A stretch of 27,740 nt of DNA from a virus. The stretch covers positions 1-27,740 of the IMG/VR virus record IMGVR_UViG_3300011113_000591; one strand, given 5' to 3'. This document shows positions 6,977 to 27,740 of the stretch, in pieces. Below the pieces are notes generated by a model. The model saw only the letters and a program-made list of their open reading frames with translations. It had not been told where the DNA came from and made no database searches. The position numbers and the translations under genes are program-made. Position 1 is the stretch's first letter, and every line of letters starts with the position of its first letter.

Positions 6977-7774
6977 ATGGCCAGCAACATTAGATTTTTA
7001 GATCAAATATTAATAAATCCTATTAATGGGGGAGGAGAAACTATTTTAAATTCTTCTTTTATTTCAACAGGTAGTATAACTGCTTCTGTGAATGTAGGAA
7101 CAGATACTTTTAAAGTGCAAAGTGGCTCATCTACTTATTTGTATATAAGTTCAAGTGGCAACATAGGTATAGGTACTACATCATCTATATCAACTCTTTC
7201 GGTAGCAAATGGAAACATAAACATTAATAGTGGATATAGTATAGGTGGTAATTCACTTGGTACTTATGATTCATTTTTAAGATTTAATTATAATATAATA
7301 TCTGGGGCAAGTTCAAGTTTTGGACATAATAGTGCATACATAACATCATTTGCAGGTGGTGCGTTTGGTACAAACGATTTATCATTTTATGCAGGAGCAA
7401 TTACCCAACCTGAAATAATGAGAATTGTAGGTTCTACAGGTTTTGTAGGTATTGGAGAAAATTCACCCTCAGCAAAATTAGAAATTAGAGGCAGCGGTAC
7501 AACTTCTGCAACTACCGCACTTAGAGTAGAAAATAGTAACCAAAGTGCAAGTTTAATAGTAAGAAACGATGGAAATATAGGCATAGGAACCACAAACCCC
7601 CAAGCTAGATTACACATTTCAGGCTCTACATCAGGCTCAATATTAGAACCAACATCCTCAGGTGTACCTACATTTACAGGAAGAGATGGTCAATTCATAT
7701 TTGGCAGTAGTGGTGGAAATCATTTCATTTATGTCTATATGGCAGGTGCCTGGAGAAGTAGTTCTTTATCATAA
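6977..7774 (+). CDS. Fibre-like virion protein with GIGTT repeats
   Basis: The 265-residue protein is rich in Ser, Gly, Asn and Thr. It contains three copies of a G-N-I-G-I-G-T-T / VGIGENSP-x-A-x-LEI-x-G type repeat, at about residues 62-75, 154-168 and 196-214. This motif is common in trimeric fibre and adhesin-like stalks of Bacteroidota and their phages. The ending (FTGRDGQFIFGSSGGNHFIY, then VYMAGAWRSSSLS) resembles the FxGxxGxF-x(n)-W-x-x tip of phage structural proteins that display a small beta domain. No signal peptide or membrane segment is visible. It follows the gp15-like gene by 15 bases, so it may be a neck whisker or a tail fibre; the sequence does not tell which. Confidence 0.65.
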   Translation: MASNIRFLDQILINPINGGGETILNSSFISTGSITASVNVGTDTFKVQSGSSTYLYISSSGNIGIGTTSSISTLSVANGNININSGYSIGGNSLGTYDSFLRFNYNIISGASSSFGHNSAYITSFAGGAFGTNDLSFYAGAITQPEIMRIVGSTGFVGIGENSPSAKLEIRGSGTTSATTALRVENSNQSASLIVRNDGNIGIGTTNPQARLHISGSTSGSILEPTSSGVPTFTGRDGQFIFGSSGGNHFIYVYMAGAWRSSSLS

Positions 7775-8475: not shown

Positions 8476-9465
8476 ATGATTGATAATTTTGTTAAAATAG
8501 TTTTAGAAAACGGGGGAGCTATAACTCCTTTACTTATACCTTCGGAAAATACGAACGGGACAGGTTTATGTAACCCTTCAATTTATATTGACATTGACCC
8601 ACTTTGTTCATGTAATGATAAAATTTTAGTTAATTTACGTCACATCCAATATACTCTATACCACTCAGAATTAAATAGGTTTGAACATCAATATGGTCCT
8701 TTAGTATATTTACACCCAGAAAATGATTTAACTCTTACAACAACTAATTATCTTTGTGAATTAGATCCTACAACTTTAGAAATTCAATCATATACTAAAG
8801 TAGATACCTCTAAATTAGATATCCCCCCAGTATGGGAATTTATAGGACTAGAAGATGTCCGATTAGTCAGATGGGACGGAAAACTTTATATGTGTGGGGT
8901 TAGAAGAGACACAAAACCTAATGGTGAAGGTAGAATGGAACTATCCGAGATAGTAGATGGTAAAGAAATATTTCGATTTAGAATTGAACCTCCTATAGAT
9001 CCAAATTCGTATTGTGAAAAAAATTGGATGCCTATCTTAGATATGCCCTACCATTTTGTAAAATGGACAAATCCAACTGAAGTAGTAAAAGTTTATCCTG
9101 AAGAAGGACGTTCTGAACAAGTGCATTTAGGTCAATATTGCAACATGCCTGCGGATTTAAGAGGAGGATCTCAAGTTATCCCATTTGGGGAAGGGTATTT
9201 AACTCTTAATCATGAAACATATTTATATAATTCTGAACAAGGGCGTAAAGACGGCACTTATAAACACCGATTTACATACTGGGATAAAAATTGGAATATT
9301 CTTAAATTTTCTGATAATTTTTCTTTTTTAGATGCTAAGATAGAATTTGCATGTGGGTTAGCAAAATACAAAGAAAATTACTTAATTACATTTGGATTTC
9401 AAGACAATGCCTCATATCTTCTTAAAATACCTGCTAAATTTTTAGAAAATTTTATTCATGGATAA
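8476..9465 (+). CDS. GH130-like five-bladed beta-propeller protein
   Basis: The 329-residue protein has hallmarks of the GH43/GH32/GH130-type propeller superfamily. These are GLCNPSI at about residues 30-36, VNLRHIQYTLY at 52-62, GLEDVRL at 124-130 (an E-D-x-R-L motif as in GH130), GKLYMCGVRR at 135-144, EKNWMPI at 181-187, a HFVKW segment near 193-197, RGGSQVI at 229-235 and FACGLA at 291-296. GH130 enzymes cleave or phosphorolyse mannosides, but related non-catalytic propellers also accompany glycosyltransferases. I cannot assign the substrate or confirm catalytic acids. There is no signal peptide, so it acts in the cytoplasm unless virion-borne. Its last 8 bases overlap the start of the TPR-like gene, implying coupled translation and a shared role in glycan handling. 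Confidence 0.68.
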   Translation: MIDNFVKIVLENGGAITPLLIPSENTNGTGLCNPSIYIDIDPLCSCNDKILVNLRHIQYTLYHSELNRFEHQYGPLVYLHPENDLTLTTTNYLCELDPTTLEIQSYTKVDTSKLDIPPVWEFIGLEDVRLVRWDGKLYMCGVRRDTKPNGEGRMELSEIVDGKEIFRFRIEPPIDPNSYCEKNWMPILDMPYHFVKWTNPTEVVKVYPEEGRSEQVHLGQYCNMPADLRGGSQVIPFGEGYLTLNHETYLYNSEQGRKDGTYKHRFTYWDKNWNILKFSDNFSFLDAKIEFACGLAKYKENYLITFGFQDNASYLLKIPAKFLENFIHG

Positions 9466-10018
9466 ACAGTTAATTAATTATATAAGCGATACAACTAACC
9501 CTGAATTTAATTATGAATTAGGATTAGCATACAAAAATTTAGGTCATACCTCTTCTGCTATATCCTATTTACTTAGAGCAGCTGAAAGATCTGAAGATTT
9601 AAATTTATCTTATGAATGTTTACTTCTTATAGCTGATTGTTTTACTCAACAAAAAAATAGAGATTTTACAGTAAAAGGATTGTATTTACACGCTATTACA
9701 GTTTTACCTAAAAGGCCCGAAGCATATTATTTATTAAGTAAATTATACGAAACAAGAACAGAATATTCTGAATGTTACACAATATCCGAAATAGGTCTAA
9801 ATATCTCCGATTTTGATCTACCCCCACTCAGAACTTACTTTGGGTATACTGGAAAATATGACTTAATATTTCAAAAAGCCTTTGCTTCTTGGTGGTGGGG
9901 GAAAGGTACTGAAAGTAGAAAATTATTTAAAGAATTAGCTTTTGAGTATTGGGGTGTATTAGATGAAAATTTAAAAAGTTCTGTTGAAAATAATTTAATG
10001 AGATTAGAAAATAAATAA
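9458..10018 (+). CDS. TPR-like helical repeat protein
   Basis: The 186-residue protein is all-helical, with tetratricopeptide spacing: FNYELGLAYKNLGHTSSAIS then YLLRAAERS at about 17-45, a second hairpin through CLLLIADCFTQQ, and a third at RPEAYYLLSKLYETRTEYSE around 88-107. These TPR-type A-G-Y and A-x-x-x-L positions are imperfect but regular. TPR proteins next to glycosyltransferases usually organise the enzyme or its acceptor; a catalytic activity is not indicated. The region after residue 120 has Trp-rich ASWWWGKGTESRKLFKELAF, like a last repeat. The ATG lies inside the stop of the propeller gene (ATGGATAA), so these two are translationally coupled. The large glycosyltransferase gene begins 27 bases after its stop. 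Confidence 0.65.
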   Translation: MDKQLINYISDTTNPEFNYELGLAYKNLGHTSSAISYLLRAAERSEDLNLSYECLLLIADCFTQQKNRDFTVKGLYLHAITVLPKRPEAYYLLSKLYETRTEYSECYTISEIGLNISDFDLPPLRTYFGYTGKYDLIFQKAFASWWWGKGTESRKLFKELAFEYWGVLDENLKSSVENNLMRLENK

Positions 10019-10045: not shown

Positions 10046-13000
10046 ATGAAAAAAATAGTAGATTTTTTTCCTTATTTCGATCCCACCGGAAAGGAAATTC
10101 TTGAATTAAGAATTAATATGTTAAAAGATTATGTTGATGAATTTATAATCTGTGAGTCTAATAAAACCCAAAGTGGTATTCCTATTGAATACAATCTAAG
10201 AAAGAGAATTAAAGAATTAAATTTACCCGAAGAAAAAATAAAGATTATAGATTTAAATATACCTGAAGATTCTGATTTAATAATTGAAGAAATTGATATA
10301 TATAATTGTGCAGAAGATTGGAATATTGAATCTAGTTTAAATAAAAATAATTTAAATTCATTGCGGGGAAGAGTAAGAGAAAGAATGCAAAAAGACTCTC
10401 TTTTACTTGTTTTAGACGATTATGATGATGACACAGTATTTATTCACAGTGACTCAGATGAGATTATAAAACCTAAAGCTATTGAATGGGTTTCTTCTAT
10501 GTGTAAACAATATCAAGAGACTATTATAAAAATTCCATTAGTACATCTTGAAGGAAGAGCAGATCTTAGAGTCTATTTTGAAAATGAAAATATTCCTAGG
10601 CCTTGGGCCGGGGGTATGTTTTTTGCTACAAAATCACAACTAAAAATATCAACACCCACCCAAATTAGATCTTGTGTTTTTAATAAATTTCCTATAGATC
10701 ATTTAACACAAGATGGAAATATGATACAAGATTTAGGTTGGCATTTTAGTTGGATGGGAAATGGGGAAAAAAGAATAGAAAAATCTAAATCTTTTTGTCA
10801 TTATGATGATATATCTAAATCTTTAATTGGTAATAAACATAATTCCGAAGAATTCCAAAATAGACTACTAGAAAACACCCCCGAAGAAGGAAAAATACCC
10901 CCTTCAGGAATTAAAAACACTATTTTAAAAAAATACCCAATAGAAAATCTTCCAAAAGAAATCTTTGAACTGCCTAGAGTTAAAAATTTTTTACTTCCTA
11001 ATTTAACTGAATTTGATTGGGGTCCCTTTAATAATGAAAAAAATAAACCTCACAGAGGTTTTATTGAAAATGAAATTGAATATAGTATGAATAAAGGGAT
11101 ATCATTAATATGCGCTTGTAAAAATAGACTTAATGCTTTAAAGATATCATTAGCCTCTTGGCTTGAAAATAAAAACATTCAAGAAATTATAATAGTAGAC
11201 TGGTCATCAGACTTACCTATACAGGATAATATAACTCTTGATTCTAGAATAAAGGTAATTAGAGTAGAAGACCAAATATATTTTAATCAACCCCAACCCT
11301 TAAATTTAGCATTAAAGCTTTGTGCATACGACACAGTTATAAAAGTAGATTGTGATTATATATTTAATACATACGAAGGATTTAATTTTTTTGAAAAGTA
11401 TAATATAGACGATTACTGTTTTGTTTGCGGCGAGACAGATGAACCTAGCTCCCCTGCTGATCCTTGCTTTAGGTACTTGAGGGGCCTACTTTACATAAAA
11501 AAGAAATTTTTAGAAGAAGTAGGAGGGTGGAATGAGAATTTTAGAGAGTATTATGGGGGGGAAGATAGCGAAATTGAACTAAGGCTAACCAACTATGGAC
11601 TAGAAAAGAAAAAAATTAAATTAGATTATACTATAATCCATATCCCTCACTTATCAAAAGAGCGAATTACTAATTTTGAAGGGCATAATCTTCCAGAACC
11701 TAAAGAAAAATTAAGAACTATGTTAATTGATAACTGTTTAGCATATAATCCTATGTCAAATATACCTCTTAATGAGACTGAATGGAGCTGGGAAACCAAT
11801 ATAAAATCTTTATCTGAATTATCATCTGTTTATAATATTATAAAAAACCAAATCACGACATATTATATATCTCCATTAACAAAATGGAACATTATTCAAA
11901 ATAGTCTCCAATTATTTACAGCCCAAATAGTAATAAATAAATTAGAAGGATTTCCTACAATATATTGTGCTAGTCTTGAAGAAAGTATAGATAGAAGAGA
12001 AAAACTAAATATACAATTTGCAGAATATGGGTTAAAACCTAAATATTTACTTTCAAAAAGATACCATGAATGTGATGATATTATAGTAGGAACCTCTTTT
12101 TTTTTGGTTGATGATAAAATAAAAGGATGCGCTGTATCCCATTTAAAAATGATAAAAGAGTGGTATGATGCAACTAATGAAGAATATGGATTTTTCTGTG
12201 AAGATGATTTATCTTTAGAAACAGTTAAATACTGGAATTTTACTTTTCAAGAATTTATAAATCAATTGCCCACAGATTGGGAAGCTGTGCAAATGTGCAT
12301 TATTAGAGACACATTTGATGAAATCAAACTAAGAAAAAGACAATTAGATGATTGGGCGGCTACGGCTTATGTTATTAAAAGAGAATATGCAAAGAAAATT
12401 ATTGATTACTATATAATCCAATCCAAAAATGCTACAGAAAGCACATCTTCTCAACAAGAATCTATAGCATATAAATTAGAAGTCAATAGATGGCCCCAAG
12501 TACAACCTCTTGTAGAACACATAATTTTACTTAATACTGGGGTAGTATACTGTTTTCCCTTATTTATAGAAAATATTAATAATCCTACTACTTCTAGTGA
12601 ATCCCAGGCTCCTAATCATATTACTTCTGCTAATTTTATTAAAAATTGGTGGGAAAACCAATATATAATGTCATCTAACAATGTAATACCTAAAGAAATA
12701 TCTTTAAATATTGATCAAAATTTTGAACAATTCCCCAAAAAATTAATGGAACATTTTTACCATAGTATTGGGGAAAACTGGTTTGATTATCAAGATCTTT
12801 ATTCTCAAATGGTAAATTACTTCCCTGATAAAGCACATTTTATAGAAGTAGGATCTTGGAAAGGACGAAGTGCAGCTTATATGGCTGTAGAAATAATTAA
12901 TTCTCAAAAACACATAAAATTTGATTGTATAGACACTTGGGAAGGCTCCGAAGAACATATTACCCCAGAAAGCTCAGCTTTCAATCCGGAATTATTAGAA

Positions 13001-13336
13001 GATAAAAATTGGTTATATAAATTATTTTTAACCAATATAACCCCAGTAAATCATACTATTAATCCTATTAGAGCAACATCTTTAGAAGCATCTAAATTAT
13101 ATCCTAATAGATCCTTAGATTTTGTTTTTATTGATGCCTCTCATGATTATGAAAATGTAAAAGCTGATATAGAAGCTTGGTATCCCAAAGTTAAAATAGG
13201 GGGATATATTGGGGGACACGATTATCCATTTTGGGATGGTGTCAAAAAAGCTGTAGATGAATTTTTACAGCAAGATTTTATTAAAAAAGAAAATATTACT
13301 ATAAATAATATTAGTACTTGGCTCTATAAAAAATAA
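10046..13336 (+). CDS. Four-domain GT17-GT2-GT25-methyltransferase fusion
   Basis: This 1096-residue protein appears to carry four enzyme modules. (1) Residues 1-255 resemble GT17: KIVDFFPYFDPTGKEILELR, then YVDEFIICESNKTQSG, and the metal-binding-type FIHSDSDEI at 132-140. (2) 351-560 is GT2-like: GISLICACKNRLNALKISL, a DCD at 435-437, and GGWNENF-x-EYYGGEDSE at 493-509, as in galactosyltransferase-type C-termini. (3) 637-800 is GT25-like: IYCASLEESIDRREKL, GCAVSHLKMI at 694-703 and EDD at 719-721. (4) 905-1096 is a class I SAM methyltransferase of the Methyltransf_24 kind: FIEVGSWKGRS at 932-942 and FIDASHDYENV at 1028-1038. No signal peptide or membrane segment is visible, so it acts in the cytosol. 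The substrate is unknown; the domain calls are from motifs. A T9 run lies at 12097-12105. It sits between tail-completion and sheath genes, a site for an accessory insertion. Confidence 0.82.
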   Translation: MKKIVDFFPYFDPTGKEILELRINMLKDYVDEFIICESNKTQSGIPIEYNLRKRIKELNLPEEKIKIIDLNIPEDSDLIIEEIDIYNCAEDWNIESSLNKNNLNSLRGRVRERMQKDSLLLVLDDYDDDTVFIHSDSDEIIKPKAIEWVSSMCKQYQETIIKIPLVHLEGRADLRVYFENENIPRPWAGGMFFATKSQLKISTPTQIRSCVFNKFPIDHLTQDGNMIQDLGWHFSWMGNGEKRIEKSKSFCHYDDISKSLIGNKHNSEEFQNRLLENTPEEGKIPPSGIKNTILKKYPIENLPKEIFELPRVKNFLLPNLTEFDWGPFNNEKNKPHRGFIENEIEYSMNKGISLICACKNRLNALKISLASWLENKNIQEIIIVDWSSDLPIQDNITLDSRIKVIRVEDQIYFNQPQPLNLALKLCAYDTVIKVDCDYIFNTYEGFNFFEKYNIDDYCFVCGETDEPSSPADPCFRYLRGLLYIKKKFLEEVGGWNENFREYYGGEDSEIELRLTNYGLEKKKIKLDYTIIHIPHLSKERITNFEGHNLPEPKEKLRTMLIDNCLAYNPMSNIPLNETEWSWETNIKSLSELSSVYNIIKNQITTYYISPLTKWNIIQNSLQLFTAQIVINKLEGFPTIYCASLEESIDRREKLNIQFAEYGLKPKYLLSKRYHECDDIIVGTSFFLVDDKIKGCAVSHLKMIKEWYDATNEEYGFFCEDDLSLETVKYWNFTFQEFINQLPTDWEAVQMCIIRDTFDEIKLRKRQLDDWAATAYVIKREYAKKIIDYYIIQSKNATESTSSQQESIAYKLEVNRWPQVQPLVEHIILLNTGVVYCFPLFIENINNPTTSSESQAPNHITSANFIKNWWENQYIMSSNNVIPKEISLNIDQNFEQFPKKLMEHFYHSIGENWFDYQDLYSQMVNYFPDKAHFIEVGSWKGRSAAYMAVEIINSQKHIKFDCIDTWEGSEEHITPESSAFNPELLEDKNWLYKLFLTNITPVNHTINPIRATSLEASKLYPNRSLDFVFIDASHDYENVKADIEAWYPKVKIGGYIGGHDYPFWDGVKKAVDEFLQQDFIKKENITINNISTWLYKK

Positions 13337-13363
13337 ATTTTATTATTTTTTTACTTATCCTAT

Positions 13364-13439: not shown

Positions 13440-15146
13440 ATGGCAGAAACTTTAATATCTCCCGGCGTACTTGCAAGAGAAAACGATTCATCATTTGTAA
13501 CCCAACAACCCGTAACTGTTGGAGCAGCTATTATAGGACCCACAGTTAAGGGACCAGTTGAAATTCCCACTGTAGTAACTACATACTCTGATTATGTAAA
13601 TAAATTTGGTACTACATTTTTAAGTGGTGGTCAAGAATATAGCTATTTAACATCTATTTCGGCTTATAATTACTTCCAAAATGGAGGTACTTCATTATTA
13701 GTAGCTAGAGTAGCTTCAGGATCATTTGCTCCTGCTTCTGCTTCAATTTTAGCTAGCGGCAGTACTGTAGCCTTTACTTTAAAAACCATTTCTGAGGGCA
13801 CTATAATGAACAATACGGGTGCTACAGGATCTAATGGTACTTTAGTAAGTGGTTCAGCTGATAATGTAAGATGGCAAATTACAAACCGCGATACAGGATC
13901 AGGAACATTTAGTTTATTAATTAGACAAGGTAACGACACTACTACAGAACCTGTAGTATTAGAAACTTGGACTAACCTTTCATTAGACCCAACTCAACCT
14001 AATTACATATCTAGAGTAATTGGTGATAGCTACCAAGACTATAATTCAACTGAAAACTATATTCAAGTAAATGGTACTTTCCCTAACCAATCAAGATATG
14101 TTTATGTAAGTGCTGTTAATAGCCCAACTCCTTACTATTTTGATAATAACGGAACCCCTCAAAACCAATATACAAGCTCCATTCCAGTAAACGCTAGTGG
14201 AACTTTTGGTGGAGCTACGGGTGATTTATTTTATGGTGGTGGTGCTAAATTTTATAACAATATATCGGGTTCTACTACTAATATTCAAGGTATTAGAGCA
14301 GCAGACTACAATAACATGATTTCTTTAATGGCTAATCAAGACGATTATAGATTTAATGTTATTACAATCCCAGGTTTAACTATAACTGATAATTCTACTC
14401 AAGTAACTACTTTAGCTAATACTGTTCAATCACGTGGTGATGCTATTTTAGTAACAGATACTTATTATTTTGGTGCTCAGTTATCACAAACTATAACTGC
14501 TGCCTCTAGTATTAATAATTCATATGCTGCAACTTATTGGCCTTGGTTACAAACAATAGACCCAGGAACAGGGCAATTAGTTTGGGTACCTGCTTCTACA
14601 ATGATTCCAGGTGTGTATGCATTTAACGATAGTGTATCTGAGCCTTGGTTCGCACCTGCTGGTATTAACAGAGGTGGTTTAAATACAGTAGTTAGAGCAG
14701 AAAGAAAATTATCTCAAACAAATCGTAATGATCTTTATGTAGGTAATGTTAACCCAATTGCTACGTTCCCGGGAACAGGTGTTGTAGTATACGGACAAAA
14801 AACATTACAGAAAAAAGCATCTGCACTTGATCGTGTAAATGTTCGTAGATTATTAATTGCTCTTAAGTCTTATATTACTCAAGTAGCAAATAACTTAGTA
14901 TTTGAACAAAACACAATTGCAACAAGAAATCAATTCTTGAGTCAAGTTAATCCATATCTCGAATCAGTACAACAACGTCAAGGTTTGTATGCATTTAGAG
15001 TAATTATGGATGATTCAAATAATACACCTGATGTAATCGATAGAAATCAGATGGTAGGTCAAATTTATCTACAACCAACCAAAACTGCTGAATTTATTTA
15101 CCTCGATTTCAATATTACTCCAACAGGTGCTACATTCCCTGCGTAA
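13440..15146 (+). CDS. Tail sheath protein, gp18-like
   Basis: The 568-residue product begins MAETLISPGVLARENDSS, then VGAAIIGPTVKGPVEIPTVV, the typical opening of contractile sheath proteins (SPGV-x-x-x-E, GP-x-x-GP-x-x-P). ISAYNYFQNGGTSLLVARV at about 71-89 is the family's a-Y-F-x-NGG-x-x-L-x-v-v-R element. The C-terminus (ALDRVNVRRLLIALKSYIT, then LVFEQNT and FRVIMDDSNNTPDVIDRN) is the conserved sheath handshake domain. The sheath polymerises around the tube and contracts on infection. T4 gp18 has 659 residues, so some variable middle domain is reduced. No Shine-Dalgarno precedes the start; the codon context is AAAAACATGG. The tube gene follows 39 bases later. Confidence 0.94.
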   Translation: MAETLISPGVLARENDSSFVTQQPVTVGAAIIGPTVKGPVEIPTVVTTYSDYVNKFGTTFLSGGQEYSYLTSISAYNYFQNGGTSLLVARVASGSFAPASASILASGSTVAFTLKTISEGTIMNNTGATGSNGTLVSGSADNVRWQITNRDTGSGTFSLLIRQGNDTTTEPVVLETWTNLSLDPTQPNYISRVIGDSYQDYNSTENYIQVNGTFPNQSRYVYVSAVNSPTPYYFDNNGTPQNQYTSSIPVNASGTFGGATGDLFYGGGAKFYNNISGSTTNIQGIRAADYNNMISLMANQDDYRFNVITIPGLTITDNSTQVTTLANTVQSRGDAILVTDTYYFGAQLSQTITAASSINNSYAATYWPWLQTIDPGTGQLVWVPASTMIPGVYAFNDSVSEPWFAPAGINRGGLNTVVRAERKLSQTNRNDLYVGNVNPIATFPGTGVVVYGQKTLQKKASALDRVNVRRLLIALKSYITQVANNLVFEQNTIATRNQFLSQVNPYLESVQQRQGLYAFRVIMDDSNNTPDVIDRNQMVGQIYLQPTKTAEFIYLDFNITPTGATFPA

Positions 15147-21625: not shown

Positions 21626-21934
21626 GTGAATCGTTATTTAAACATACCTATTATTAAGTCATTAAGTGGGAAACAGATATATGCCACATCTCGTTACCCT
21701 GAAATACCTTTGTCTGTAAATGACATATATGTTTACACCACACAAGGTGATAGATACGATTTATTAGCATTAAATTACTACGGGGATTCTTCATTGTGGT
21801 GGGTTATAGCTATTGCTAATCCTAATATTAGTTTAGGAACATTAGTTATACCTGAAGGTGTACAAATTAGAATACCCAGTAATGCAGTAAATATAATAAG
21901 TGAATTTAAATTAATTAACCAAATAGTTATATGA
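21626..21934 (+). CDS. Baseplate wedge protein, gp53-like (LysM-like)
   Basis: The 102-residue protein starts at GTG (21626), 5 bases after the previous stop. It contains VYTTQGDRYDLLALNYYGDS followed by SLWWVIAIANPN and ends near VIPEGVQIRIP. That order, GD-x-x-D-x-LA-x-x-YYGD-x-x-LWW-x-IA-x-AN then i-p-G-x-x-x-i-P, is the LysM-like pattern of T4 gp53 baseplate wedge proteins and of small tail proteins such as P2 gpX. At about half the length of T4 gp53 (196), it is a near-minimal version. The stop overlaps the ATG of the hub gene (ATGA), pointing to coupled translation and stoichiometric baseplate assembly. Confidence 0.75.
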   Translation: MNRYLNIPIIKSLSGKQIYATSRYPEIPLSVNDIYVYTTQGDRYDLLALNYYGDSSLWWVIAIANPNISLGTLVIPEGVQIRIPSNAVNIISEFKLINQIVI

Positions 21935-24900
21935 CCGGAAATATTGTAGGAGAACCAATAGATGAATTCGTAGCTAAACAAATAGATACCCGCCAAAAAA
22001 TATATGGGGGAGGATATAATAACATAAGAACCCCTCAACAATTAGTATTTTTTAACTCTAGAACATCTTTTGTTAAACTTCTATCTTCAGTAGATATAAA
22101 AGAAGATTTTAAACCAAATAGTGAAGAGTTAAAAGAAATAATAAAAGAATATAAGGGTAATAAATTAGCTCAAAATTTTATATTATTTAATGGAGTATCA
22201 TCTTTACCTACTACTACCCCTCCTTTTCTTAGTAGTTATTTACTTAACAATTATCAAAATTATGCCTATGGTATGGGTGGGTATGAGCAAGGTTTACGTC
22301 CTATGCCTGGCATTATTTCAATTAATGTAAAAAGTGAAACTAGAGGATCATTAAAAACCGCTACTATAAATTTAAAAGCCTGGAATAGGGTTCAATTTGA
22401 GATAATTGATGTTTTGTATTTAAGATTAGGATATACACTTTTATTAGAATGGGGTAATAATATTTATTTTGCAGACCCAACCACCCCAGATAAATTTGAA
22501 TCTACTCCCCTTAGCTTAGAAACTGATTTTCTACAACCCACAGGAGATAAAGTTGATTATGAAACTATATTAGAAAAAATACAAAATAATAGACAAATAT
22601 CATATGGTAATTATGATGCTTTGGTTGGGAGGATAGTTAATTTTACCTGGGAAGCTAATATTGATGGAAGTTATGACATTATTATAATACTAAGAAGTAT
22701 AGGAGATGTTATAGAATCTATAAAAGCTAATAGTTTAATAACAGATACTACACAAGTATCATTACCTACCTCTCCCCAAACAAATCCAAATCGTTTTCAA
22801 CGACTTAATGCAAATGCCGCTTCTGATAATACTAGAGTAGTTAATAAAAATGCTGAAATAAGTAAAGAGTTAGCTAATCAAAATATATTACTTGCAACTG
22901 ATATAAGTCCTTTAGAATTAGTTACTTCTACTGAAATAGGTAATGAATTAAATAAGGCTTTTTTTAACTTGAAGGGATTAGAAAAGGTTGTTTTAAAAAA
23001 AGATATTTTAGATCGGGTAGTAGCTTATAACGCGGATTGGGATAAAAGTACAACTGGAAACACATATATATCTCAAAAATATAATACTCCTTCTTCTAGT
23101 GATCCTTCTACAAGTGTTTCATCTATGGAGTGCTATATACGATTAGGATCTTTATTATATTTTATAAAAGAAAAAGTTATTTTTAAATATAAAAGTAAGA
23201 GTACTAAAAGTGCTTTAAAATTTGATTTAGATAATGATACAAACTTAATATATGATCCTAGAAATACTATAAGTTTTGACCCTACAGTTTGTTTAATTAA
23301 ACGTACATTTAAAAATAAAAATTCAAATGTTGAATATATATATGGTTCTTTATGTGATGATTTTGCATCTAGTTACAAAAATACAGCACATGTTTTAAAT
23401 ATATATGTAAATTTTAATTGTATAGCTTCATACTTAAACCCAGTTAATAATTCAACTGATGGTAGGGTATTGCTTATAGATTTTTTAAATTCAATTTTAA
23501 CTAATATAAGTAGAGCTTTAGGAGGGATAAATAATTTATATGCTTATATAGAAGAAGAAACTATTACTGTCAAGATTTTAGATCAAACCCCCCTTTATAA
23601 TAAAAAAGATATTTTAACAAAATTAAATAAAACTTCTTCTTTAATCCCCCCTATTATATTATTAGGATATACTTCTACTAGTGATGAGCCAAATATAGTT
23701 AAAACCAATTTTGTTAAAAATTTTAGTATTAAAACTTCTATAACTCCTCAATTAGCTAGTATGTTAACTATTGGTGCCCAAGCTCGTAGTTTAATAGTAG
23801 GAGAAGAAGCTACAGCTTTATCTACGCTAAATAATGGTTTAATTGATAGAGTTAAATATGAAGTTATAAATGCTGACGAAAAAGATAATGCTAATACTAA
23901 TATTGAGGTAAAATATCCTAATATTAGCAAGGCATTTTATACACAAAGAAATTCATTAGCATACATAAAACAAGATAACGAATATACGTCTAATATTCCT
24001 ACTTTTACTTATAATGATGTAACTAAATATACTCAAATACAAATAGATTTTATTAACTATAATCAATCTAAAGAAGCCATTAAATCCAAAACATCCTCAG
24101 GTCAAATTGGTTATATACCTGTTAGTTTAAATTTAGAATTAGATGGAATTTCAGGATTAAAAATTTACAATGGTTTAAATGTAGAAACTAGATTTTTACC
24201 ATCCCAATATCCTGATACTATGGATTTTATCATTATAAATTTATCTCATGATGTAATTAATAATGTATGGACTACTAAATTAGAAACTATTATGGTCCCT
24301 AAAGATCCAAATCCTACGGATGAAGAAGAAAATGTAAATGTTGAAATTAGTAGTGGTGGAGGAACAGTAAGCCCTGATACATTTAATACTTTAAAAGAAT
24401 TTTTTAATATTATATTAAAAGGAGAAAGTGCAAATTATAATAGTTATAATTGGTTTAAAAAAAGATCTCCTAATACAGGGAGGGAAGGATTAGTTTCTGT
24501 TATAAATCAAACTAATAAATCAAAGAATCTAATGCCTGAATTAGAAGAAAGATATATTAGTGATCTTACAATAGGAGAAATAAAAACATTTATGAATGCA
24601 AATTTTACAAAATCCCCATCCACCGGAAGAAATACTGAAGGACAAACCAAAAATCAATTATATGCTGTAGGACGTTATCAATTAACCCCTGTAACTTTTT
24701 ATAGTTTAACCCAAAGCAAAAAATCAGATGTTACGTTTAATCCTGCATTACAAGATGAATTAGGTAAAGCACTTTTAAAATCTAAACCATCTATTAATGA
24801 TTATTTAAATAATGGAAAGGGTTTAGGCAATGCCGTTGTAGGTTTATCCCAAATCTATTCTAGTATTCCAACAAATGCAAATAATAAAAGCTATTACTCT

Positions 24901-24990
24901 AATGAAACGGCAACAATATCTTTTGATACTGCTAAAAATGCTTTAGAAAAATTATATAGATCAATTCAAGCAAAAAAAATAACATTATAA
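21931..24990 (+). CDS. Baseplate hub protein with C-terminal lysozyme-like domain
   Basis: The 1019-residue product is a long beta-rich hub protein. Its first part holds [20 protein letters not shown], then [20 protein letters not shown] and [17 protein letters not shown], typical of hub proteins in T4-like environmental phages. The middle includes [11 protein letters not shown] and [13 protein letters not shown] and ends near [16 protein letters not shown] at about 760-780. From about 815 there is a different domain with [13 protein letters not shown], where Glu832 is a candidate catalytic residue, and [16 protein letters not shown] around 911-926, as in lysozyme or transglycosylase-like folds. 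I infer a gp27-gp5-like fusion: hub plus a peptidoglycan-cutting domain used at entry. No strong signal peptide is seen. The start overlaps the gp53-like stop. Confidence 0.72.
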
Positions 24991-25000
24991 TTTACAAAAA

Positions 25001-27740
25001 ATGTCTTATTTTCCATTATCTCAAGTAAAAACTGGTTTATATACTAATGGTAAAGAGTATGCTTTATCTACTACTGGGGAAGAGTATAAAGGCTATTATT
25101 TTGAAACTTCCAATGGTGAATTTTATAGTGGAAAAACTCCTCAAGATTTACAAGTAATTCTTTTAGTTCCTATTAATGAAACTAATTCAACTGTTGATCC
25201 AAATACCCCTTATTCTGAAATACAAGTAAATGATACTACAGTTACATCATATTTAAATCTTCGTTCCCAATCTGAATCTTTTACATTAGCTCTTCCTTAC
25301 TATTCTCCTGTAATTCCTACCCAACAAGATTACCAAATAGGAGAATTTAGAAGATATTTTTGTAAAAAAACAAATGAAATTTTATATATTGAAATAAGCA
25401 TTGAAGTATATGAGGCTTTAATTAATCAAAACCCTGAGTATTTATATCAATCTTATTTTGCATTTAATATACCTTGGCAATTAACAGGTGATAAAGAACA
25501 AGTATATAAAACTAACCGCAATATAGTTGAACTAACCTCTCAACAACAGCAGTTACCAAAATTTGACGAATATCTAAAAAAAGATTATTTAAAATATTAT
25601 ATAGAAGGAGTTTTTGTAGAAACATCACTTACTTCTTCTATTAACACTCCATTTACAAGTTTAACTGCTAGAACAGTTACTAGAAGAACCCCAACAACCC
25701 CTACACGTACTTCAACTAATAGAAATACAAATGTATTTCAACCTGTTTCTACTTCTAATTTCCAAATCCCCACTGAACAACCACAAATTAATCCAACCCA
25801 ACAATCCAGGGAAATAATATATATAGGCACTTCAGGTCCACAAGGATTACAAGGTGTAACTGGTACTCAAGGTGCTCAAGGAACTCAGGGTACCCAAGGT
25901 ATACAGGGTATTGCAGGTGCTTTTGCGGGCCAAGGTATTCAAGGTACCCAAGGCACACAGGGCACTCAAGGTATCCAAGGCGTTCAAGGTACACAAGGTA
26001 TCCAAGGTGTACAGGGTACACAGGGTATTCAAGGTGTTCAAGGAACTCAAGGTACTCAAGGTATCCAAGGAACACAGGGTGTTCAGGGCGTCCAGGGTAT
26101 TCAAGGAACACAAGGTACACAGGGTACTCAAGGAACACAAGGTACTCAGGGCACACAGGGTGTTCAAGGTACACAAGGTATCCAAGGCGTTCAAGGTACA
26201 CAAGGTATCCAAGGTGTACAGGGTACACAGGGCATTCAAGGCATTCAAGGTATACAAGGTATACAGGGTACACAGGGCATTCAAGGCATTCAAGGTATAC
26301 AAGGTATACAGGGCACTCAAGGTACTCAAGGTACACAAGGCATTCAAGGAACACAGGGTACACAAGGTACTCAAGGTACACAAGGCATTCAAGGAACACA
26401 GGGTACACAAGGTACTCAAGGCCGACAAGGAATACAAGGTACTTTAGGTACTGAAGGTAACGACGGATCTAATTCAGGAAGATGGAAATATGCTACTGGA
26501 GGAGGACAACCCAATACCACATTTTTTACAGCAAACACTGATACTATTGCAAGTATTACAACAGTTAATATTAATGAACAAGATATTAATAATACTGATT
26601 ATAGTGCTTGGTTTAGTGCTCTTTACACATTACGTATAACTAATAATCAACCAGCGTATCTTCAGATAACCTTAGTAGGCTCAAATAATAGAATTGGTCT
26701 TTGGGAAATTTTAGATGTACAAGACCAAGGAGCTTACTGGTCAATAGGTTTAAGTAACTTAGTGGCTAATGGTACATTAAGTAGTAATGAGATTTACACT
26801 ATATCTTGGGTAGCTAATGGTGCACAAGGTACCCAGGGCACACAAGGAATACAGGGTATTCAAGGTAGACAGGGCATCCAAGGTGTTCAAGGTACTCAAG
26901 GTATTCAAGGTGTACAGGGTACACAAGGCACACAAGGTGTTCAAGGCACACAAGGCACACAAGGTGTTCAAGGCACACAGGGTACACAAGGTATCCAAGG
27001 TATACAGGGTACACAAGGTACACAAGGCATCCAAGGTGTACAAGGCACACAGGGTACCCAAGGTGTTCAAGGCACACAAGGTACACAAGGTATCCAAGGT
27101 GTACAAGGCACACAGGGTACCCAAGGTGTTCAAGGCACACAAGGTACACAAGGTATCCAAGGTGTTCAAGGCACACAAGGTACACAAGGTATTCAAGGTG
27201 TACAGGGTACACAAGGTACACAAGGTACACAAGGTATTCAAGGTGTACAGGGAACACAGGGTACACAAGGCATCCAAGGTGTACAGGGTACACAAGGTAC
27301 ACAAGGCATCCAAGGTGTACAAGGAACACAGGGCACACAAGGCGTTCAAGGAACACAGGGTACACAAGGCATCCAAGGTGTACAGGGTACACAAGGTACA
27401 CAAGGCATCCAAGGTGTACAAGGAACACAGGGTACCCAAGGTGTTCAAGGCACACAGGGTACACAAGGTATACAGGGTACACAAGGCACACAAGGTATCC
27501 AAGGTGTTCAAGGCACACAGGGTACTCAAGGTATCCAAGGTATCCAAGGTAGACAAGGTATACAAGGCGTTCAAGGAACACAAGGCACACAAGGTATACA
27601 GGGTACACAAGGCACACAAGGTATCCAAGGTGTTCAAGGCACACAAGGTACACAAGGTATCCAAGGTGTACAAGGAACACAGGGTACACAAGGCGTTCAA
27701 GGAACACAGGGTACACAAGGCATCCAAGGTGTACAAGGAA
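25001..27740 (+). CDS. Collagen-like tail fibre protein (3' partial)
   Basis: The frame opens at ATG 25001 and runs off the right edge, at least 913 codons. Residues 1-278 form a globular start, [20 protein letters not shown], then [20 protein letters not shown], probably attaching to the baseplate or tail, with a Thr/Pro/Arg-rich linker ([20 protein letters not shown]). Residues 279-489 are about 70 Gly-X-Y triplets. About 490-606 is a separate beta domain ([20 protein letters not shown], then [19 protein letters not shown]). A second collagen-like block starts at 607 and continues for about 102 triplets to the edge. Nearly every triplet is Gly-X-Gln with X = Thr, Ile or Val, and there is almost no Pro. 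The ATG follows the hub stop by 10 bases, and the adhesive tip lies beyond the window. Confidence 0.88.
26222..26311 (+). repeat. Perfect 45-base tandem duplication
   Basis: Two adjacent identical 45-base copies (26222-26266 and 26267-26311), each encoding [15 protein letters not shown]. In-frame, so it lengthens the collagen rod by five triplets. Confidence 0.9.
26321..26410 (+). repeat. Perfect 45-base tandem duplication
   Basis: Two adjacent identical 45-base copies (26321-26365 and 26366-26410), followed by the start of a third. Distinct in sequence from the copy at 26222. Confidence 0.9.
26819..27740 (+). repeat. Second collagen-like Gly-X-Gln block, open at the right edge
   Basis: About 102 units up to the edge, with higher-order periods of 36 bases ([12 protein letters not shown]) and 27 bases (GTQ GTQ GVQ), and two rare GRQ triplets. 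Synonymous differences (caa/cag, ggt/ggc/gga) mark older units. Confidence 0.95.
27035..27160 (+). repeat. Perfect 63-base tandem duplication
   Basis: Two adjacent identical 63-base copies (27035-27097 and 27098-27160), seven triplets each, identical even at synonymous positions, so recent on this scale. Confidence 0.9.

Follow-up and report, generated by a model that had tools for sequence, protein, structure and literature searches.

The closest precedent, and the nearest proven case, for a viral polypeptide that assembles and methylates a glycan is A064R of the chlorovirus PBCV-1: this 638 aa protein of glycosyltransferase (GT)-GT-methyltransferase architecture combines two rhamnosyltransferases and a methyltransferase, all biochemically proven, and builds the terminal part of the glycan on the major capsid protein (PMC9614988). 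PBCV-1 also encodes A111/114R, which contains three GTs (PMC7826918); mimivirus has a collagen-modifying protein, L230, and a putative collagen transferase, R655 (PMC9546862). Few studies deal with the glycosylation of proteins by phages, and the GTs of T4-like aquatic phages are usually taken as modifiers of host lipopolysaccharide (LPS); one report presents the pelagimyophage host recognition cluster, a set of tail-fibre genes and several GTs, in this light (PMC7029224). Here, we describe a cassette in the complete 27,740-base virus record IMGVR_UViG_3300011113_000591 (hereafter, the window), centered on a single open reading frame (ORF) that fuses three GT modules to a methyltransferase and follows genes for a beta-propeller protein (PROP) and a TPR protein. 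As with A064R, the product is a single soluble viral protein in which multiple GT modules are followed by a methyltransferase.

A four-module fusion protein

The fusion ORF (10046..13336, plus strand, as are the other window features written 'start..end' below; ATG start) encodes 1096 aa in the order GT17, GT2/GT7-like, GT25 and class I S-adenosylmethionine (SAM)-dependent methyltransferase. The original prediction, made from the sequence alone, had placed these four enzymes in one frame, and profile searches recover all of them. The GT17-like module (residues 1-330, 10046..11035, with the motif SDSDE at 10448-10462) matches PF04724 at 1.3e-11 (44.6 bits against a curated Pfam cut-off of 26); a sequence search of the PDB gave no match for it. 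On the GT2/GT7-like GT-A module (residues 340-600, 11063..11845, DCD at 11348-11356), PF02709 (Glyco_transf_7C) scores 27.7 bits (2.2e-6, cut-off 23), and the GT2 profile PF00535 is weak in the window (0.0038; 17.6 bits, under its cut-off of 23.3) and above the cut-off in homologues (2.2e-7 and 1e-8). For the GT25-like module (residues 625-880, 11918..12685, EDD at 12200-12208), PF01755 (1.9e-5) lies just above the Pfam cut-off of 24 as a segment only, with 25.1 bits for the segment alone and 20.3 for the whole protein, and residues 632-873 strongly match the PHROGs glucosyltransferase family phrog_2835 (9e-34). The methyltransferase module, of the Methyltransf_24 type (residues 895-1096, 12728..13333, EVGSWKGRS at 12845-12871), matches PF13578 at 2.4e-18 (67.4 bits, cut-off 26.3) and, over residues 914-1090, phrog_2675 (2e-22). 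No transmembrane segment is evident.

The motifs on which the prediction had been based (SDSDE, DCD with GGED, EDD and EVGSWKGRS) retain their key residues among relatives: the metal- and SAM-binding positions, whose loss would have counted against it, are 94-100% conserved. Thus, in the SDSDE motif of 48 relatives D136 and E139 are conserved in 100% and D138 in 98%; in the GT2/GT7-like module D435, D437 and D507 reach 100% and E506 94%; the GT25 motif E719-D720-D721 is kept in 100% of 34 relatives; and in the methyltransferase, where the SAM-binding glycine motif and the metal-site Asp/His positions were tested, G936, S942, D963, D1030, H1033 and D1059 are all at 100%. A Foldseek comparison of an AlphaFold model of residues 331-1096 (pLDDT 77) with the PDB retrieves the two-domain GT-A synthases K4 chondroitin polymerase (K4CP) and heparosan synthase 2, with the sugar O-methyltransferases MeT1, NovP, SpnH and MycF as the nearest methyltransferase folds; mimivirus R655 (9crz) is also among the structural neighbours of the model.

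The same domain order, searched for in phages, is present in L001/L035 (one contig), which comes from another metagenome and is 93% identical. The ratio of nonsynonymous to synonymous substitution rates (dN/dS) between the window and L001 lies between 0.07 and 0.38 in every module, being highest in GT25 (0.38), so that each of the four evolves under purifying selection. An artefact or misassembly is excluded by this selection and by the identical order in an independent contig, and the four-module ORF is confirmed as real.

Constant partners and a module-exchange slot

The prediction had captured one instance of a wider system, and had overlooked its constant propeller and TPR partners, the slot in which its modules are swapped and a collagen-like fibre gene. 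PROP (8476..9465, 329 aa) is the first gene of the cassette, and the TPR gene (9458..10018, 186 aa, with a Pfam TPR match) overlaps it by 8 bases. The predicted structure of PROP (pLDDT 86.5) has a five-bladed propeller fold, and its top 38 PDB matches are GH130 mannoside phosphorylases, related putative glycosidases and Leishmania GT108 mannosyltransferases (E ~1e-8 to 1e-5; TM up to 0.67; identity only 10-15%). Since neither Pfam and other profile libraries nor a PDB sequence profile search returned a match, we describe PROP as folding like GH130/GT108 and not as a member of either family. Its residues E126-D127-x-R129 are near-invariant and resemble, in sequence, the EDPR motif of GH130; in two cultured phages the gene is annotated as a beta-mannosyltransferase. 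PROP has at least 589 relatives in viral contigs. A cellular origin of the whole cassette was considered and set aside, as 84,980 prokaryote genomes, scanned with a pattern-limited search, yielded no PROP relative and, for the fusion, only a 26% match to the methyltransferase, a result that speaks for a lack of close relatives and not for absence.

Of the 84 related loci whose downstream sequence is long enough, 83 have both PROP and TPR, and in many relatives the TPR module is itself fused to transferases. Behind them, GT17, GT2, GT25, GT11, FkbM or type-24 methyltransferase (MT24) and DUF6445 modules are recombined into at least 21 fused orders (84 evaluable loci), such as GT2-GT25-GT17-TPR, GT25-GT17-TPR with GT2 as a separate ORF, TPR-GT17-MT24, GT17-FkbM-DUF6445 and FkbM-GT2-GT25-GT17-TPR (1478 aa); that of the window is confined to itself and L001/L035. 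The earlier notion that one polypeptide serves as a fixed assembly line finds no support in that form: relatives show other orders, separate ORFs or swaps to an FkbM methyltransferase, DUF6445 or GT11, so covalent order is not essential.

Close relatives exchange modules at domain borders within one slot. The window is 93-96% identical in nucleotide sequence to L002 (95.8% in the GT17 part) up to base 11083, at the 3' edge of the GT17 module in the GT17-GT2 linker, and shows no identity from there until 13355; L036 and L037 carry other module sets in the same slot ahead of the tail sheath, and identity to all three restarts at 13355-13362. The sheath gene (13440..15146; phrog_23, 5e-72) forms the fixed right border. 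The cassette block looks like an insertion, because Microcystis phage Mel-JY01 has one small ORF between its neck-region gene and the sheath.

Some of these loci carry further modules. A GT11 family protein (7e-26; L005:5154-5951) lies between PROP and a GT2-GT25-GT17-TPR fusion, and a TPR-FkbM fusion (L074:4157-6982) has radical SAM and SPASM domains at its C-terminus, the sequence of which suggests yet another modification chemistry in the cassettes. The cassette is also present in two cultured cyanophages, Synechococcus phage S-SCSM2R and DSL-LC02, where existing annotations are misleading: the 'CcmH/NrfG' gene of the former (L115:12971-14836) is a TPR-DUF6445 fusion and the 'FkbM family methyltransferase' gene of the latter (L116:12968-15121) a TPR-FkbM fusion. 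DUF6445 (PF20043) is a frequent alternative module (e.g., L002:7052-7696, L037:13408-14079, L116:15118-15708) with an invariant YHxD, a later His and an Arg-Leu. This HxD...H...R pattern, as in 2-oxoglutarate (2OG)-Fe(II) oxygenases, makes it a likely hydroxylase, and would fit protein hydroxylation followed by glycosylation; the sole match of its profile in the PDB was a non-significant one to a putative hydroxylase (E 0.95).

Linkage to fibre genes and the proposed substrate

The cassette had been correctly located inside a phage structural cluster, which proves to be T4-like: the window encodes a major capsid protein (nearest named phages Flavobacterium phage immuto, 55%, and Mel-JY01, 48%), PhoH, neck, tail sheath, tube and hub proteins and a collagen-like protein. 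The latter (25001..27740, cut by the contig end) has ~170 Gly-X-Gln triplets. A tail-fibre-like protein (6977..7774; phrog_18345 2.6e-10, phrog_9942 1.8e-9) lies in the same inserted block as the cassette and is an alternative candidate substrate. The gene at 21931-24990 codes for a large hub-like protein, the C-terminal part of which is endolysin-like (phrog_90, residues 900-994).

Across loci, 20 of the 73 evaluable ones have a collagen-like ORF in the same direction no more than 1.5 kb upstream of PROP, as against 0 of 77 with a capsid gene as anchor (Fisher p 1e-7, a value overstated by near-duplicate loci and a control gene outside the fibre region). In several loci the two are 25-75 bases apart; within 150 bases downstream of PROP a collagen-like ORF was never found in the 73 loci. 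Where a collagen-like neighbour is lacking, the upstream gene encodes a tail-fibre, spike or virion protein in 7 of 10 loci tested, or 8 if a weak fibre match in L095 is counted; the other two are a ribonucleotide reductase (L013) and a UDP-glucose dehydrogenase (L089). The latter (L089:7735-8937) is a phage gene immediately upstream of PROP, i.e., a sugar-nucleotide supply beside the cassette. In the cultured DSL-LC02, the direct neighbour is a collagen-like gene in divergent orientation. Per record, Gly-X-Y repeats occur in 24 of 34 with PROP and 7 of 20 capsid-relative records without it (p 0.02), a co-occurrence only moderate, so that the argument rests on adjacency. Repeats at PROP loci have Gln in 61% of Y and Thr in 34% of X positions and almost no Lys or Pro, whereas those at capsid-relative loci have Ser in 64% of Y positions; this split between Gly-X-Gln at loci with PROP and Gly-X-Ser at capsid-relative loci without it, seen in the window gene and the collagen-like ORFs of L035-L114 and L118-L197, may be explained by host or lineage.

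Taking together the modules, their conserved catalytic residues, the constant partners, the swapping and the linkage to tail-fibre and collagen-like genes, we give an even chance to the proposal that this is a modular system by which the phage, with the aid of PROP and TPR, attaches glycans to its own tail fibres and O-methylates them. Here, we infer the catalytic activities, the order of steps, the sugars, the role of TPR and the substrate along the following lines. The three GT-A modules of the fusion would add sugars one after another, and the sugar O-methyltransferase module would probably cap the chain. PROP, as a GH130/GT108-like enzyme of the mannosyl-transfer type, would add a mannose-type sugar, and the TPR protein is a probable substrate-binding adaptor that would hold the protein to be modified. 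The reactions would take place in the cytoplasm, either ahead of assembly or while it proceeds, on tail-fibre proteins, among which the collagen-like Gly-Thr-Gln fibre (25001-27740) is the foremost candidate; when modules are reshuffled between phages, the glycan on the fibre would then change. More tentatively, and with somewhat less than even confidence, we extend this to a large group of tailed phages, most of them uncultured, in which PROP and TPR might recruit interchangeable GT, methyltransferase and 2OG-oxygenase-like modules to Gly-X-Gln fibres, thereby diversifying the glycans that cover the receptor-binding apparatus.

Several considerations weigh against tail fibres as the target. 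The case is built from sequence, models and gene context; in the window the collagen-like gene is not adjacent to the fusion but 11.7 kb further downstream; and many PROP loci have no collagen-like ORF in the 9 kb examined. With a capsid-gene control outside the tail-fibre region, adjacency may reflect a shared variable region and not a pairing of enzyme and substrate. Moreover, known collagen glycosylation does not act on Gln-rich repeats that lack Lys and Pro.

The main rival, which we consider doubtful, is that the cassette remodels the host surface (LPS O-chain or capsule) during infection, e.g., to block superinfection or hide the infected cell, with GT17, GT2, GT25 and the sugar O-methyltransferase extending and capping a lipid-linked or surface glycan. 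LPS biosynthesis commonly employs GT25 and GT2 families, the GTs of the pelagimyophage host recognition cluster have been so interpreted (PMC7029224), and the sugar-nucleotide gene directly upstream of PROP in L089 would suit this role. However, the window has no membrane anchor, flippase or lipid-carrier gene, and the constant fibre-gene linkage, the TPR partner and the likely oxygenase DUF6445 among the exchangeable modules are at odds with it; further, the mimivirus GT25 proteins L230 and R655 were themselves initially misread as LPS enzymes (PMC9546862). The at least 589 viral loci marked by PROP, with shuffled transferases beside fibre genes, offer a concrete, testable alternative to the LPS reading.

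It is rather improbable that the target is a virion protein other than a fibre (capsid, decoration or sheath), as in PBCV-1. In this phage the cassette does sit between neck and sheath genes, and A064R, with its two GTs and methyltransferase, acts on a capsid protein glycan (PMC9614988). Elsewhere, however, the cassette adjoins tail-fibre genes; it is found at only 1 of 80 capsid-gene loci and in none of 20 longer capsid-relative records. Less probable still is that the modules serve unrelated pathways, or are in part inactive, the shuffling being mere variable-region recombination that yields no joint product: order and fusion state do vary freely among loci and GT25 has the highest dN/dS in the window (0.38), but catalytic residues are kept in all four modules, each with a dN/dS below 0.4, PROP and TPR are always present and L001 has the same order. 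Modification of phage DNA or nucleotides we regard as scarcely credible, since, for all that PHROGs names the methyltransferase family 'DNA methyltransferase' and T-even phages glucosylate their DNA, the methyltransferase comes closest to O-methyltransferases of sugars and small molecules, the window has no hydroxymethylase or base-modifying gene and the setting is structural.

If tail-fibre glycosylation holds true, phages would build custom glycans on their own fibres, providing soluble, modular glycan-building enzymes for biotechnology, and an oxygenase function would be suggested for DUF6445.

Comparison with known systems

The GH130 mannoside phosphorylases and the GT108 mannosyltransferases (MPTs) of Leishmania have their fold in common with PROP, the activity of which is predicted only. 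BclA of the Bacillus exosporium is a collagen-like filament that bears an O-linked oligosaccharide ending in a methylated sugar. The BclA tetrasaccharide contains a 2-O-methyl sugar (PMC6222408). In contrast to the phage cassette, BclA is a bacterial spore protein, modified by separate enzymes with no fusion. Mimivirus is comparable in having its own collagen-like proteins, GT25-related transferases and a hydroxylase (L230, R655, R699); there, however, lysines are hydroxylated and the hydroxylysines glycosylated, whereas the phage repeats are rich in Thr and Gln with almost no Lys or Pro. The pelagimyophage/cyanomyophage cluster is likewise a variable island in which T4-like aquatic phages combine fibre genes with GTs, but it is described as consisting of separate genes dominated by GT8, and the propeller, TPR and fusion family are not named in the passages of that description covered here (PMC7029224).

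The original prediction knew of no described phage system with this exact architecture. A search of the open literature for phage glycosyltransferases with multiple domains, for DUF6445 and for collagen hydroxylation in phages, covering few subscription journals, found no description of a propeller-TPR-transferase cassette. The joining of GTs to a methyltransferase has a proven precedent in A064R. A064R builds and methylates the glycan of a virion protein, whereas a virion substrate of the phage fusion is only proposed; it comes from a virus of eukaryotic algae and draws on other GT families; and a GH130/GT108-like propeller, a TPR partner and module swapping in one slot, all features of the phage cassette, have not been described for it. 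The phage fusion would work in the manner of A064R, but in a phage and with other enzyme families and partners.
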